Of a DNA stretch of 64,000 bases, positions 23,453-28,435 are shown piece by piece. Under the pieces are notes generated by a model. The model saw nothing but the letters and a program-made list of their open reading frames with translations. It did no database searches and was not told the DNA's origin. Position 1 is the stretch's first letter. Every line of letters starts with the position of its first letter. A program made the position numbers and the translations under genes. Source of the stretch: Cerasicoccus sp. TK19100 (GTDB lineage: Bacteria; Verrucomicrobiota; Verrucomicrobiia; Opitutales; Cerasicoccaceae). The stretch covers positions 1 to 64,000 of the forward strand of contig NZ_JAPWDU010000001.1 of the NCBI RefSeq assembly GCF_027257155.1. The letters run 5' to 3'.

Positions 23453-23605
23453 TGTCGCGCTGAGAAGTATCGTCGCATGCTTGAGACAACTTGGCTCAAT
23501 CTTATTTCCTTATTTGGTGGATTAGGGTTTTGTAAGGTTCTCTGCATCATTTGGTTAAAGTTTGATGGCTGTCGAGTATGCCACCGGCACGCAACCTGCC
23601 CTTAA

Positions 23606-26230
23606 ATGGGCATGAATATCGATTTTAACCGCTTTACCGAGAAGGCCCGTGAGGCCGTGATGGGGGCGCAGAATGATGCCCGCACCCGACACCACCAACA
23701 GATTGACGGGTGGCACTTGCTGCAGGCGTTGTTGGAGCAGCAGGGGGGCATTGTGCCGAGCTTGCTCAACAAGCTGGAGATTACGCCCAACGCGGTGCGA
23801 CTCGCCAACGAGCGCGAGCTCGACCGCCTGCCGTCCGTGACGGGCAGCACCAGCGCCAGCAATGTCTACGTGACGCAGGCGCTGCAGGATGTCTTTACCT
23901 ACGCCGAGAAGCAGGCGCAGAAGCTCAAGGATGAATACATCTCCGTGGAGCATCTGCTGCTGGGCCTCGTCGCGAACAAGGACGACAAGCTGCGCGCGTT
24001 TTTTAAGTCCTTTAACCTGGACGAAAAGCGTGTGTTGGAAGCGCTCACGCAAGTGCGCGGCAATCAGCGCGTGACGTCGCAGAACCCAGAGTCGACCTAC
24101 GAAGCCCTGGCCAAATACGGGCAGGACCTCGTGGAGCTCGTCAAGCAGGGCAAGCTCGACCCGGTCATTGGCCGCGATGACGAGATTCGCCGCGTGATCA
24201 GGATCCTTTCCCGCAAGACGAAGAACAACCCCGTGCTCATCGGCGAGCCCGGCGTTGGCAAGACCGCCATCGTTGAAGGCCTCGCCCAGCGTATTGTGCG
24301 TGGCGACGTGCCCGAGGGCTTGAAGGACAAGACCGTTTTTGCACTCGACCTTGCGAGCCTCGTGGCTGGCGCGAAATACCGCGGCGAGTTCGAAGAGCGT
24401 CTCAAGGCCGTGCTGAACGAAATCAAGTCCAGCGATGGCAAGGTGATCCTCTTCATCGACGAGCTGCACACGATCGTAGGCGCGGGCAAGACCGAGGGCG
24501 CGATGGACGCGGGCAACATGCTCAAGCCCATGCTGGCCCGTGGCGAGCTGCGCTGCATCGGCGCGACCACGCTCGACGAATACCGCAAGTATATCGAGAA
24601 GGACGCCGCGCTGGAGCGCCGTTTCCAGACGGTCATGGTCGACCAGCCAACGGTCGAGGACACGATTTCGATCCTGCGCGGCCTGCGCGAACGTTTCGAA
24701 GTGCACCACGGCGTGCGCATTCAGGACGCCGCGCTGGTGCAGTCGGCGGTGCTGAGCCATCGCTACATCAGCGAACGCTTTTTGCCGGACAAGGCCATCG
24801 ACCTCGTCGACGAAGCTTGCGCGCAGATCCGCACGGAAATGGACTCCATGCCCGCCGAACTCGACGGCCTCAACCGCCGTGTCATGCAGTTGGAGATCGA
24901 AGAGCAGGCCCTCAAGAAGGAGAAGGACGAAGCCTCGAAGCAGCGCCTCGAAACGCTGCGCAAGGAGCTGTCCGACATCCGCGAGAAGGCCAATGCGCTG
25001 CGCGCCCGTTGGGAGGCTGAAAAGGCCGAGCTGGGCAAGGCGCAAAAGGTGCGCGAGGAGATTGACCAAGTCCGTCAGCAGATGGCCGAAGCCGAGCGGG
25101 TTTACGACCTGCAAAAGCTCGCCGAGCTGCGTCATGGCCGCCTGCCTCAGTTGGAGCAACAGCTGAAGGACCTCGAGGTCAAGGAGCACAAGCAAGTCGA
25201 GAAGGGTGATACCCTCGTGCGCGAGGAAGTTTCCCCGGAAGAAATCGCCGAAATCGTGGCGCGCTGGACGGGTATCCCGGTCACGCGCCTGGTCGAAGGC
25301 GAGCGCGACAAGCTGCTTAACTTGGAGAACGTTTTGCACGACCGCGTGGTCGGCCAGGATGAAGCGGTGACGCTCGTCAGCGAAGCGATTTTGCGTGCGC
25401 GTTCGGGCATCAAAGACCCGCGCCGGCCGATTGGTTCGTTCCTCTTCCTGGGGCCGACGGGCGTCGGTAAAACCGAGCTCGCGAAGACCCTGGCAGAGTC
25501 GCTCTTTGACACCGAGGACAACATCGTGCGCATCGACATGAGCGAATACATGGAGAAGCACAGCGTGGCTCGCCTGATCGGCGCGCCTCCGGGATACGTC
25601 GGTTACGATGAGGGCGGTCAGCTGTCCGAAGCCGTGCGTCGCAAGCCGTATTCGGTGGTGCTGTTCGACGAAATCGAAAAGGCCCACCCGGACGTCTTCA
25701 ACGTGCTGCTCCAGATCCTCGACGACGGTCGCATCACCGACAGCCAGGGGCACGTGGTGAACTTTAAGAACACCGTGATCATCATGACCTCCAACGTCGG
25801 CAGCCGCTACCTCATCGAGGGCGTCACCGGCAGCGAGATCCCCGAGAGCGTGCGCGAATCGGTGATGACGGAACTGCGCGCAGGATTCCGACCGGAATTC
25901 CTGAACCGCATCGACGACATCATCCTGTTCAAGCCGCTCAAGCTGGAAGAGATCACGCGCATCGTGGACCTCCTGGTCGCCGATTTGAACACGCGGCTCG
26001 AAGACCGCCGCGTCACGGTTACTTTGGATGACAAAGCTCGCGAGTGGGTCGCCGAGCGCGGCTACGATCCGGTCTACGGCGCCCGCCCGTTGAAGCGGTT
26101 CTTGCAGAAGCGCGTGGAGACGCAGTTGGCCCGCAGCCTGATCGCCGGCGACATCGGCGAGGGCGACCAGATTAGCTTCACGATTGCTGACAACGAGCTG
26201 CAGATGCAGCAGGCCCAAGCAGTTTCATAG
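23606..26230 (+). CDS. clpB: ATP-dependent chaperone ClpB
   Basis: 874 aa, the normal ClpB length. Layout: Clp_N repeats (1-150), first AAA+ module with Walker A GEPGVGKT at about 213-220, a long middle coiled-coil domain (about 400-530) that distinguishes ClpB from ClpA/C, and a second AAA+ module with Walker A GPTGVGKT at about 616-623, then the ClpB D2-small C-terminal domain. It works with DnaK to disaggregate proteins. The start may be the second Met (23612). No CIRCE element or clear sigma-32 promoter is visible upstream. A strong terminator follows. Confidence 0.97.
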
Positions 26231-26537: not shown

Positions 26538-26573
26538 CAGAAGCCCCGGTCATTGTTTGGCCGGGGCTTTGTG
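26538..26573. terminator. Second copy of the clpB-type terminator hairpin
   Basis: Stem AAGCCCCGGTC / GGCCGGGGCTT, almost identical to the hairpin at 26265, with a poor T-run (TTTGTGTTT). It lies 21 bp from the 3' end of the convergent PurQ-like gene and may serve as the barrier between the two. Confidence 0.6.
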
Positions 26574-26593: not shown

Positions 26594-27652
26594 CTAGTTG
26601 CCAGATTTGTCCAGGATGTCGGCGAGCTTCTCGTTAAGTCCGCCAACTTCCTTGATGATTCGGGCGAGGACTACCTTGTTGCGGTAGGCCACGGACATCA
26701 GTGACAGATGCTGACTCGTTTCGGTAATAACGTAATGATTGCCAGTGGTCGTGGCCATATTACTCGTTTGCTCTTTGGCCGAATGTTTATGCAGCTTGTG
26801 TAGGTATTCACCGACATCATTGCTAGAATCTGTCGTATTAACCGTTCGCTCACCGTTGACCGAAAGCAGCATTTTGTGGCCCGGCAGGTATGCGTAGATT
26901 TTATCCATCGACATGCTGGATGCGCAATTGATGAGCAACTGCTCGATTTGCGCCTGCGCATCGGGGTTGAGTTGGGGCACCTTGGGCTCGACCTTGGGTT
27001 GCTTGAGGAACGCACTCAGGACGCGAGCGCCGATGGTGCTACGATGGATGCCGTGCTCAACAGCTGCCTCGGGGTGAGGCATCATGCCGAATACGTTTTC
27101 ATCTCGGTTGCGAATGGCGGCGATGTTGCCTACGGAGCCATTGGGATTGTTGGCGTAGCGGAACAAAATCTGCTGGTTGGTCTGTAGCGAATTAAGATCG
27201 CGGTCGTCCACCCAGTAGCGTCCGAAGCGGTGAGAGACGGGTAGCTCAATGGTCTCGCCAAGGCGGCGAATACTGAAGTTCTTCGTGCTGTCTTCAACGT
27301 TTAGCGACTCGTAATCGCAGTAATGCATACGACTGGCGTTTTCGGTAAACGTGCCAGGCAGAAGCTTCGCTTCGCAGAGGACTTGGAAGCCGTTGCCAAT
27401 CCCAAGTATGGGGCCGCCGCTTGTCGCGAAGTCTTTTATGGCTTGGAGTATCGGTGTAGATTTCGCCAAGGCCCCTGCGCGCAAATGATCCCCGAAAGAG
27501 CATCCCCCAGGGATAATGATAGCGTCTGCCCCCGCAAAGCTTTTGCTCTTGTGGGGAAAGAGTCTGGCTCGCACATGCAGCTCACCAATGAGCGCATGTA
27601 GCAAATCACGATCTCCGGTGGACCCTGGCAATTGAACTACGCCAACTTTCAT
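26594..27652 (-). CDS. PurQ-like class I glutamine amidotransferase with Gly in place of the nucleophile and a C-terminal extension
   Basis: 352 aa. Residues 1-217 match PurQ, the glutaminase subunit of FGAM synthase: PGGCSFGDHLRAGA at 48-61, GIGNGFQVL at 84-92 and the HPE motif at 193-195. In active PurQ the second of these reads GICNGFQ; here the cysteine is Gly86 (codon GGC, one base from TGC), so glutamine hydrolysis should be lost. Residues about 230-345 form an extra domain (KIYAYLPGHKMLLSVNGE…HLSLMSVAYRNKVVLARIIKEVGG) with the strand-helix style of roadblock/longin domains. It is the last gene of a group with two small proteins of that fold, only 9 bp after the preceding one. A regulatory or scaffold role is more likely than purine synthesis. 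Confidence 0.82.
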   Translation of the reverse strand: MKVGVVQLPGSTGDRDLLHALIGELHVRARLFPHKSKSFAGADAIIIPGGCSFGDHLRAGALAKSTPILQAIKDFATSGGPILGIGNGFQVLCEAKLLPGTFTENASRMHYCDYESLNVEDSTKNFSIRRLGETIELPVSHRFGRYWVDDRDLNSLQTNQQILFRYANNPNGSVGNIAAIRNRDENVFGMMPHPEAAVEHGIHRSTIGARVLSAFLKQPKVEPKVPQLNPDAQAQIEQLLINCASSMSMDKIYAYLPGHKMLLSVNGERTVNTTDSSNDVGEYLHKLHKHSAKEQTSNMATTTGNHYVITETSQHLSLMSVAYRNKVVLARIIKEVGGLNEKLADILDKSGN

Positions 27653-27661
27653 TTCCCAATC

Positions 27662-28024
27662 TTACTCCGCTGGATTGAATTCTTCGTTGATGGTCAGGCA
27701 AATTTTATCCAGTCGATTTAGGATGAGGCCGAGGTTGGTTGCCTTCGGAAAAACTGCCATTACCGACAGTGTCGGGGCAAGAAAGCGGGCGACGTAGAAA
27801 GTGTCGCCCCAAGTCATGATCAATTCTTGGGGGCCGCCGTCCTGTGCATCTTGCTCGGGGATTCGGCCGACTAGCTTTTTAAAATTTTTAATGAAACGAG
27901 AAAAACCTCGATGGTCCCTCTTGTGGGGAAGCATGAGCAACGGACTCGTGTCCTTGCGGTAAACGATGAAGCACTGGCACGAGGTCAGTTGGATAAAGTT
28001 TTGGTAGAGTTCTTCGTTTTCCAT
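27662..28024 (-). CDS. Small longin/roadblock-like protein
   Basis: 120 aa, no signal peptide. The pattern of strands and helices (CFIVYRKDTSPLLMLP, ELIMTWGDTFYVARFLAPTLSVMAVFPKATNLGLILNRLDKICLTI) resembles roadblock/LC7 or longin folds that bind small GTPases, but the match is weak. It lies 9 bp upstream of the PurQ-like gene and 54 bp downstream of a true roadblock gene. Its start codon follows a terminator-like hairpin with no Shine-Dalgarno sequence, which suggests controlled or weak expression. Confidence 0.7.
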   Translation of the reverse strand: MENEELYQNFIQLTSCQCFIVYRKDTSPLLMLPHKRDHRGFSRFIKNFKKLVGRIPEQDAQDGGPQELIMTWGDTFYVARFLAPTLSVMAVFPKATNLGLILNRLDKICLTINEEFNPAE

Positions 28025-28025
28025 A

Positions 28026-28059
28026 GAAAAAGCACATCTTGCATGGAAGCAAGATGTGC
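28026..28059 (-). terminator. Hairpin between roadblock and longin-like genes (attenuator candidate)
   Basis: Perfect 11-bp stem GCACATCTTGC/GCAAGATGTGC with a six-base loop, followed on the minus strand by five T residues, ending 1-2 bp before the next gene's ATG. It looks like an intrinsic terminator inside the gene group. Confidence 0.75.
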
Positions 28060-28078
28060 AGTTTGAAAGTGAGGAGGT

Positions 28079-28435
28079 TTAGAGTTCGACGCCTTTTTCG
28101 AAAGTGCCGAGTGATATACGAGCCATGGCCAGGTTTGCCTGTGCGCGATTTACGGCAATGTAGAGGAAGATCGCATCGTTCTTCGCCAAGGGACGAATGA
28201 TGTGATATTGGGTTCCGAGGGTGATCAGGATGTCCTCGATATTATCTTCCAGGCCGAGGGTGGCCATGGTAGCGCGCTTTGCCTTTACCACTTCTGTGTT
28301 CCCAGCTGCGGCAGCTTCGAGGTTTAGCGAACCGCCGCCGGCCATGCCGAGGACCATGCCGCTATCGGAATCAACGAGGCATGCGCCAATGAAACCTTTA
28401 ATGTCGCTGAGAGGATTGAGATCTACTTCTTTCAT
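28079..28435 (-). CDS. Roadblock/LC7 domain protein
   Basis: 118 aa single-domain protein. The family pattern is clear: KGFIGACLVDSDSGMVLGMAGG, then a helix, DILITLGTQYHIIRPLAKNDAIFLYIAVNRAQANLAMARISL. Bacterial members (MglB and relatives) dimerise and often act as GTPase-activating partners of MglA/Ras-like GTPases or as scaffolds. No GTPase gene is in the window. It is the first gene of the group with the longin-like and PurQ-like genes, separated from them by a hairpin. Confidence 0.88.
   Translation of the reverse strand: MKEVDLNPLSDIKGFIGACLVDSDSGMVLGMAGGGSLNLEAAAAGNTEVVKAKRATMATLGLEDNIEDILITLGTQYHIIRPLAKNDAIFLYIAVNRAQANLAMARISLGTFEKGVEL

Follow-up and report, generated by a model that had tools for sequence, protein, structure and literature searches.

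The 64,000-nucleotide stretch of DNA analysed here (hereafter the window) lies on contig 1 of the 5.07-Mb, 13-contig genome of Cerasicoccus sp. TK19100, and its minus strand carries three genes, all in the same direction, whose products may form a roadblock-type complex that contains a defunct metabolic enzyme. The first in the order of reading, gene 1 (P0003; 28079-28435), encodes a small roadblock-like protein of 118 amino acids (aa) from a widespread family without a Pfam match; gene 2 (P0002; 27662-28024) encodes a second small protein of 120 aa, probably of the roadblock type; and gene 3 (P0001; 26594-27652) encodes a 352-aa homologue of PurQ with a C-terminal domain. The trio is kept as a unit in three of four Cerasicoccus genomes (the window's genome, C. 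maritimus, and C. frondis), and none of its genes was found in the fourth species (G069). An earlier note on this DNA had proposed checking whether gene 3 homologues with the same Gly86 and the same extension stay beside the other two genes, and in these three genomes they do. The spacings between genes 1 and 2 and between genes 2 and 3 are 54 and 9 bp in the window, 48 and 10 bp in C. maritimus, and 52 and 47 bp in C. frondis. Genes upstream of the trio are common to the window and C. maritimus; at the 13-kb C. frondis locus the trio alone matches window proteins, apart from one frame antisense to gene 3.

The PurQ-like head of gene 3

Residues 1-217 of gene 3 (27002-27652, minus strand) form a PurQ-type glutamine amidotransferase (GATase) domain without the catalytic Cys. 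The P0001 sequence confirms what the earlier note had read there, namely that Gly86 (codon 27395-27397, minus strand) stands in the place of the nucleophile and that the oxyanion loop and the HPE motif are kept. The nucleophile site reads GIGNGFQ in P0001 and GICNGFQ in the genome's other PurQ; P0001 retains the GG.SFGD (oxyanion) loop, Gln90, and His193-Pro194-Glu195 (27068-27076, minus strand); HPE is present in all three paralogues, that is, the extra copies of the trio carriers. Position 86 is Cys in 10 of 10 canonical PurQ proteins of the family and Gly in all three extra copies. A single-genome error or a recent mutation was rejected, because the same Gly and the same tail occur in C. 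maritimus and C. frondis. With its nucleophile gone, gene 3 should not act as a glutaminase. P0001 also lies above the curated NCBIfam cut-offs for PurQ (240.4 bits for a cut-off of 212, and 218.1 bits for a cut-off of 177.8). Automatic annotation is therefore likely to label it PurQ, which makes the gene an annotation trap.

The 10 canonical PurQ proteins share 121 invariant columns. The three paralogues retain 75 of these; 46 are altered in at least one paralogue, and 12 carry one identical new residue in all three. The shared changes include Cys13 to Gly, Cys59 to Ala, Cys86 to Gly, and Gly142 to Arg, and further Asn145 to Arg, Arg147 to Trp, and Arg196 to Ala. Thus, the fold has been kept while the active site changed. 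Two of these changes are not unusual, as Thermotoga maritima PurQ also has Arg at the place of residue 145 and the Salmonella PurL chain 4l78 also has Ala at the place of residue 196. By comparison, position 142 (codon 27227-27229, minus strand) is Arg in the three paralogues, whereas the 10 canonical proteins, T. maritima PurQ (3d54), and 4l78 all have Gly there. In an hhalign comparison with CarA of the same family (E=0.035, a low score), this column falls on the Gly of the NHG motif; the loop with that motif contacts glutamine in carbamoyl-phosphate synthetase, and the change to Arg is predicted to fall in the glutamine-binding loop. These residues bear on the idea that gene 3 is a dead glutamine sensor, in which glutamine would still bind and the roadblock tail would report nitrogen status. 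The kept oxyanion loop, Gln90, and His-Glu pair speak for such a sensor, as does structure 4wxy, in which a glutaminase mutant without activity has glutamine bound, but the Arg fixed at position 142 argues against it, and we regard this sensor as unlikely.

A pattern scan for GIGNGFQ in 387 genomes of the phylum gave nine matches, compared with one for the reversed control: the window, two single-chain PurL proteins with Gly at this place, and six frames without PurQ likeness when read by eye. The scan demands the exact codons of the peptide and would miss variants, and the trio carriers G094 and G104 lie outside the sample. Two genomes of the same phylum (G430 and G514; loci L077 and L078, 1030-3021, minus strand) encode a single-chain phosphoribosylformylglycinamidine (FGAM) synthase (TIGR01857, partial frame) in which Gly replaces the catalytic Cys and HSE replaces HPE. 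This is another Cys-less glutaminase, here within a purine enzyme.

The earlier note had left it to be checked whether a canonical purQ exists elsewhere in the genome. A Cys-bearing copy (G000:C3:624923-625525) is indeed encoded directly after purS and scores 318.7 bits on the curated PurQ model, and the loss of the only purQ was therefore rejected as an explanation. The other two trio carriers likewise encode a canonical Cys-bearing purQ, and a PurQ match was found in all 10 family genomes searched. The note had named a Cys-to-Gly change in a single genome without another purQ as fatal to its reading; what was found is a Gly shared by three species, each with its canonical copy. Downstream of the canonical purQ lies a 771-aa frame that by eye resembles the purL-like frame of a sister genome. 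Gene 3 adjoins neither purS nor purL, as purS and the purL-like frame lie with the canonical copy on C3. This arrangement is one of two points against a role of gene 3 as a decoy, or as a regulatory PurQ, that would still bind PurL and PurS and modulate purine synthesis in response to its roadblock partners; the other is the set of altered invariant columns. The 53% identity of residues 1-217 to the genome's own canonical PurQ, together with the invariant residues kept, speaks for this role, and we consider it unlikely. Compared with PurQ proper (the glutaminase of FGAM synthase, T. maritima 3d54_D), gene 3 belongs to the same sequence family over residues 1-217 but differs in its missing Cys, its Arg142, its added roadblock-type tail, and its separation from purS and purL in a genome that also holds a canonical copy.

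The three paralogues form one clade with support of 100/100. The best tree places them with all four canonical Cerasicoccus PurQ proteins with weak support (65/53), while nesting them with the three carriers' own canonical copies was rejected by the approximately unbiased (AU) test (p=0.034). Grouping with two other clades of the family was not rejected (p=0.417 and 0.097). Because several placements are compatible with the data, the tree does not fix the time and source of the duplication. Between the same pairs of species, nonsynonymous change (dN) is 0.19-0.24 in the PurQ domain of the paralogue and 0.415-0.70 in the tail, compared with 0.03-0.04 in canonical purQ. Synonymous change by the Nei-Gojobori method (NG86) is beyond scoring for the PurQ domain in all pairs and is 2.9, 1.4, and without a value for the tail, so the dN/dS ratios are rough. 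Gene 3 evolves fast yet looks constrained, since synonymous change in its PurQ domain is beyond scoring, and the tail looks the least constrained. The faster evolution of the protein relative to canonical purQ is what a decaying purQ duplicate that came to lie beside roadblock genes by chance would display, but the intact frames, the identical fixed changes and tail in three species, and the extent of synonymous change make this explanation highly improbable.

Fold of the gene 3 tail and of the two small proteins

The extra C-terminal domain that the earlier note had seen in gene 3 is present, spans about 125 residues (residues 225-349; 26606-26980, minus strand), and occurs as the same tail in three species. 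Its AlphaFold model predicts a helix, two strands, a second helix, three strands, and a last helix, in that order, with a predicted local distance difference test (pLDDT) value of about 57 in this part. According to PMC5680233, the order a-bb-a-bbb-a is that of the roadblock domain and bb-a-bbb-aa that of the longin domain. Superposition of this low-confidence model with VIA-align gave MglB chains as best matches (6izw_B with Z 12.7, root-mean-square deviation [rmsd] 2.5, and 116 aligned residues; 6hjm_S with Z 12.7, rmsd 2.9, and 117 aligned residues), followed by other roadblock chains with Z of about 10-12.5. Because GAF domains stand in the same list with Z of 10.4 and 9.9 and the pLDDT is about 57, the roadblock fold of the tail is likely rather than shown. 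A Foldseek search with the whole gene 3 model listed the PurQ chain 3d54 first and then Rag, Ragulator, and MglB chains. In profile tests, none of 60 column shuffles was as good as the tail against an MglB-like set and one of 60 was as good against the gene-1 family. Pfam Robl_LC7 (PF03259) gave no match at E up to 1 for P0001, P0002, or P0003, and no match in the window's genome; one of the 54 genomes searched matched. The trio resembles Myxococcus MglB and MglC in the predicted fold of the gene 3 tail, less surely in gene 2, and is unlike them in that no MglA-type GTPase was found for it, no Robl_LC7 match was obtained, and the tail is fused to a pseudo-glutaminase.

Gene 2 was called longin-like in the earlier note. 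The spacing given there to gene 3 is correct, whereas the order predicted by AlphaFold (H-EE-H-EEE-H) is that of a roadblock domain, and with low confidence we assign gene 2 to the roadblock type rather than to longin. Foldseek gave MglB 6hjm as the best match (E=0.0071, prob 0.85), with none at 0.001; MglB, Ragulator, and archaeal roadblock chains rank high, with E from 0.007 up. In the profile test against the gene-1 family, no shuffle out of 60 was as good as gene 2.

The first gene of the group had been described as a true roadblock/LC7 gene, which is more than the data allow, as the Robl_LC7 search returned nothing for it. Its roadblock-like nature is suggested by weaker evidence, namely PDB entry 7yh1, a fusion with DUF4388, and the neighbours of its relatives. 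The entry 7yh1 ('Roadblock/LC7 domain protein') was matched with E=0.0031 by a 14-row gene-1 profile and with E=0.025 by a 10-row profile, and a 3-row profile gave no such match at E up to 1. A gene-1 relative fused to DUF4388, on a contig of the viral collection (L027, 5455-6342), has a weak Robl_LC7 match (E=0.18).

Relatives of gene 1, GTPases, and neighbouring features

Gene 1 shares 86% identity with its counterpart in C. maritimus and 78% with that in C. frondis. Within the sampled genomes it was found in 3 of 246 of the order and 1 of 387 of the phylum, all of them Cerasicoccus, and this distribution suggests that the genus acquired gene 1. Relatives of gene 1 were found by tblastn in 28 plasmid records, all with less than 60% identity (50-59% in the best 20 of the 28), and the hosts include Streptomyces, Hymenobacter, Deinococcus, Acinetobacter, and Comamonas. 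Phage records gave no match to gene 1. The family is present in four IMG/VR contigs, one of which carries the DUF4388 fusion, and on two of them (L026, 5953-6357; L028, 5950-6357) the relatives lie 1.2-2.4 kb upstream of frames that read by eye as terminase and are apparently prophage cargo. For genes 2 and 3, a phage or plasmid origin was rejected, as plasmids gave no match to P0002 or the gene 3 tail at E up to 1 and viral contigs gave none to P0002. An anti-phage defence role was likewise rejected, because P0001-P0003 had no PADLOC match at E up to 0.01; the weak PADLOC matches that a coiled-coil protein of C. maritimus did have seem to stem from its coiled coil.

We opened the neighbourhoods of gene-1 relatives in 12 of the 28 plasmid records, one of which has no annotation there. 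An annotated roadblock/LC7 gene lies nearby in six of the 12 loci (Acinetobacter, Comamonas, Agarilytica, and three from Streptomyces, two of these with a common protein accession and hence not independent). In two loci there is a small GTPase nearby, from Comamonas and from Agarilytica, where it is annotated as hypothetical and was identified by Pfam. The Agarilytica locus also has a BLUF photosensor protein, the only one in the 12 loci, and one further locus (Deinococcus sp. QL22) has a DUF4388 protein. The 235-aa protein of the Comamonas set has a helix-turn-helix match just below the Pfam cut-off (21.8 vs 22 bits). This set resembles the Group 3 MglA systems, which PMC4316618 describes as an unknown protein with receiver-like and winged-helix-like ends together with a homologue of MglA and one or two of MglB. 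By analogy, gene 1 may correspond to the second MglB homologue of such systems. The Comamonas and Agarilytica sets resemble the trio in holding a gene-1 relative beside another roadblock protein, and differ from it in that a GTPase is present, with a BLUF or winged-helix-like protein where the trio has a PurQ-like head.

These relatives also raise the question of whether the trio serves a small GTPase from another part of the genome, in the manner of MglB and MglA. The company of small GTPases and roadblock/LC7 genes in Comamonas and Agarilytica, and the likeness of these sets to the Group 3 systems, would support this, but a profile of the Comamonas and Agarilytica GTPases gave a best match of only E=0.0159 over 30 positions in the four genus genomes. 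Furthermore, Pfam Ras gave four matches in the window's genome: IF-2, MnmE, Der, and a 618-aa frame. We therefore consider service to a distant GTPase quite improbable. The pairing with MglA-like GTPases that the earlier note had suggested testing thus has no candidate, and because no such GTPase was found in the genus genomes, a complex formed by the trio would probably work without an MglA-type switch. None of the three trio genes has a receiver or winged-helix-like Pfam match, and the rest of the genome was not searched for such a partner.

Two further clusters were observed in the genus. At L048 2124-5737, downstream of a frame that reads by eye as exosortase-like, C. frondis has a second copy of gene 1 with a coiled-coil-like protein and two small proteins without a Pfam family. 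C. maritimus has a cluster (L046 1865-2407 and L047 2830-5386) of a coiled-coil-like protein, a 161-aa protein, a Robl_LC7 protein, and a protoglobin; the Robl_LC7 protein is proline-rich, 291 aa long, and has a clear domain match (7.2e-17), and the protoglobin gene follows it (3.5e-24). The two coiled-coil-like proteins share 29% identity (E=1e-22), and the match between the small proteins that precede the roadblock gene in the two clusters is confined to the proline-rich end. The 161-aa protein was found in one of 10 family genomes and is absent from the window's genome, and P0002 had no BLASTP match to the 110-aa C. frondis protein. The genus thus has more than one case of a roadblock gene beside a sensor-like domain, and this lends support, though no proof, to the idea that heads can be exchanged.

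The region contains eight terminator-like matches, compared with a mean of 3.7 in shuffles. One of them, in the gap between genes 1 and 2 (28032-28059, minus strand), is a hairpin with a T run behind it and a probable internal attenuator. A hairpin occurs at the same position in all three carriers, with a paired change from T-A to C-G and energies of -19.7, -20.9, and -20.4 kcal/mol (none of 200 shuffles was as low in each), and the T run follows it in two of the three. The simplest reading is that the hairpin acts as a partial terminator and keeps genes 2 and 3 below the level of gene 1. A palindromic terminator-like repeat lies beyond the end of gene 3 (26540-26570), with a T run in the plus orientation only. 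Farther along, an 887-aa open frame on the minus strand (23555-26218) lies antisense to the frame at 23606-26230, which reads by eye as ClpB, and is most likely a codon-composition artefact.

A candidate GTPase-free roadblock complex

The reading that we favour, with moderate confidence, is that the three gene products form a roadblock complex without a GTPase, in which the pseudo-glutaminase is the head for input or docking. Genes 1 and 2 would be the free-standing roadblock-type subunits, and the tail of gene 3 would dimerise with them and display the PurQ head as a non-catalytic binding module. As judged from the sequence, this head would no longer hydrolyse glutamine, and with Arg in place of Gly142 it probably no longer binds glutamine as PurQ does and would instead bind an altered ligand or a partner protein. 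Binding might then be relayed through the roadblock dimer to some output, and the hairpin after gene 1 would probably make its product more abundant than those of genes 2 and 3. The earlier note's central proposal, a repurposed glutaminase in a roadblock assembly, is supported because the trio is conserved, Gly86 is fixed, a canonical purQ lies elsewhere, and the tail is predicted to be MglB-like.

Several results weigh against this complex. Matches to the tail were confined to the genus (3 of 223 genomes of the order), as were those to gene 2 (3 of 273), and no output component was found for the trio. The models are weak, with a mean pLDDT of 48.9 for gene 3, where residues 99-226 fall below 50, and of 54.1 for gene 2. 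VIA-align did not confirm a roadblock fold for gene 2, as no match reached a Z of 5: an NTF2-like design is on top, NTF2-like folds are in the leading rows, and MglC and MglB are at Z 3.5-3.6. Against the MglB-like set, 21 of 60 shuffles were as good as the gene-1 family and 24 of 60 were as good as gene 2, which amounts to no match in either case, and hhalign probabilities among these families are low (11.7% at best).

A bolder view is that the trio is a convergent bacterial counterpart of the Rag/Ragulator nutrient scaffold, with a dead glutaminase in place of the GTPase head, docked by its roadblock tail on two free roadblock subunits, a nitrogen or purine metabolite as the signal, and no GTPase. 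Rag GTPases, according to PMC5680233, have an alpha/beta head followed by a roadblock tail and work with free roadblock subunits. Gene 3 has the same order of head and tail, and Foldseek aligns RagA and RagC over both of its domains; its head, in contrast, has the glutaminase fold instead of that of a GTPase, and the two-domain alignments have an rmsd of about 10-14 A, which indicates a likeness in domain order and is not evidence of descent. We speculate on this counterpart only as an unlikely case; if it were true, the trio would belong to a wider set of roadblock modules whose input heads can be exchanged (BLUF, protoglobin, DUF4388, and PurQ).

Among the titles and abstract openings listed by searches of open-access papers, no fusion of a GATase with a roadblock domain was described, and no paper on roadblock together with protoglobin was found. 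The trio is a new combination of known parts, found so far in one genus, and its sequence suggests that an old enzyme has been turned into part of a sensor or scaffold. Roadblock proteins are known mostly as regulators of GTPases or as parts of scaffolds. A defunct metabolic enzyme as the sole non-roadblock domain would show a metabolite-binding fold plugged into roadblock signalling, in a set of three proteins that is small enough for direct testing.

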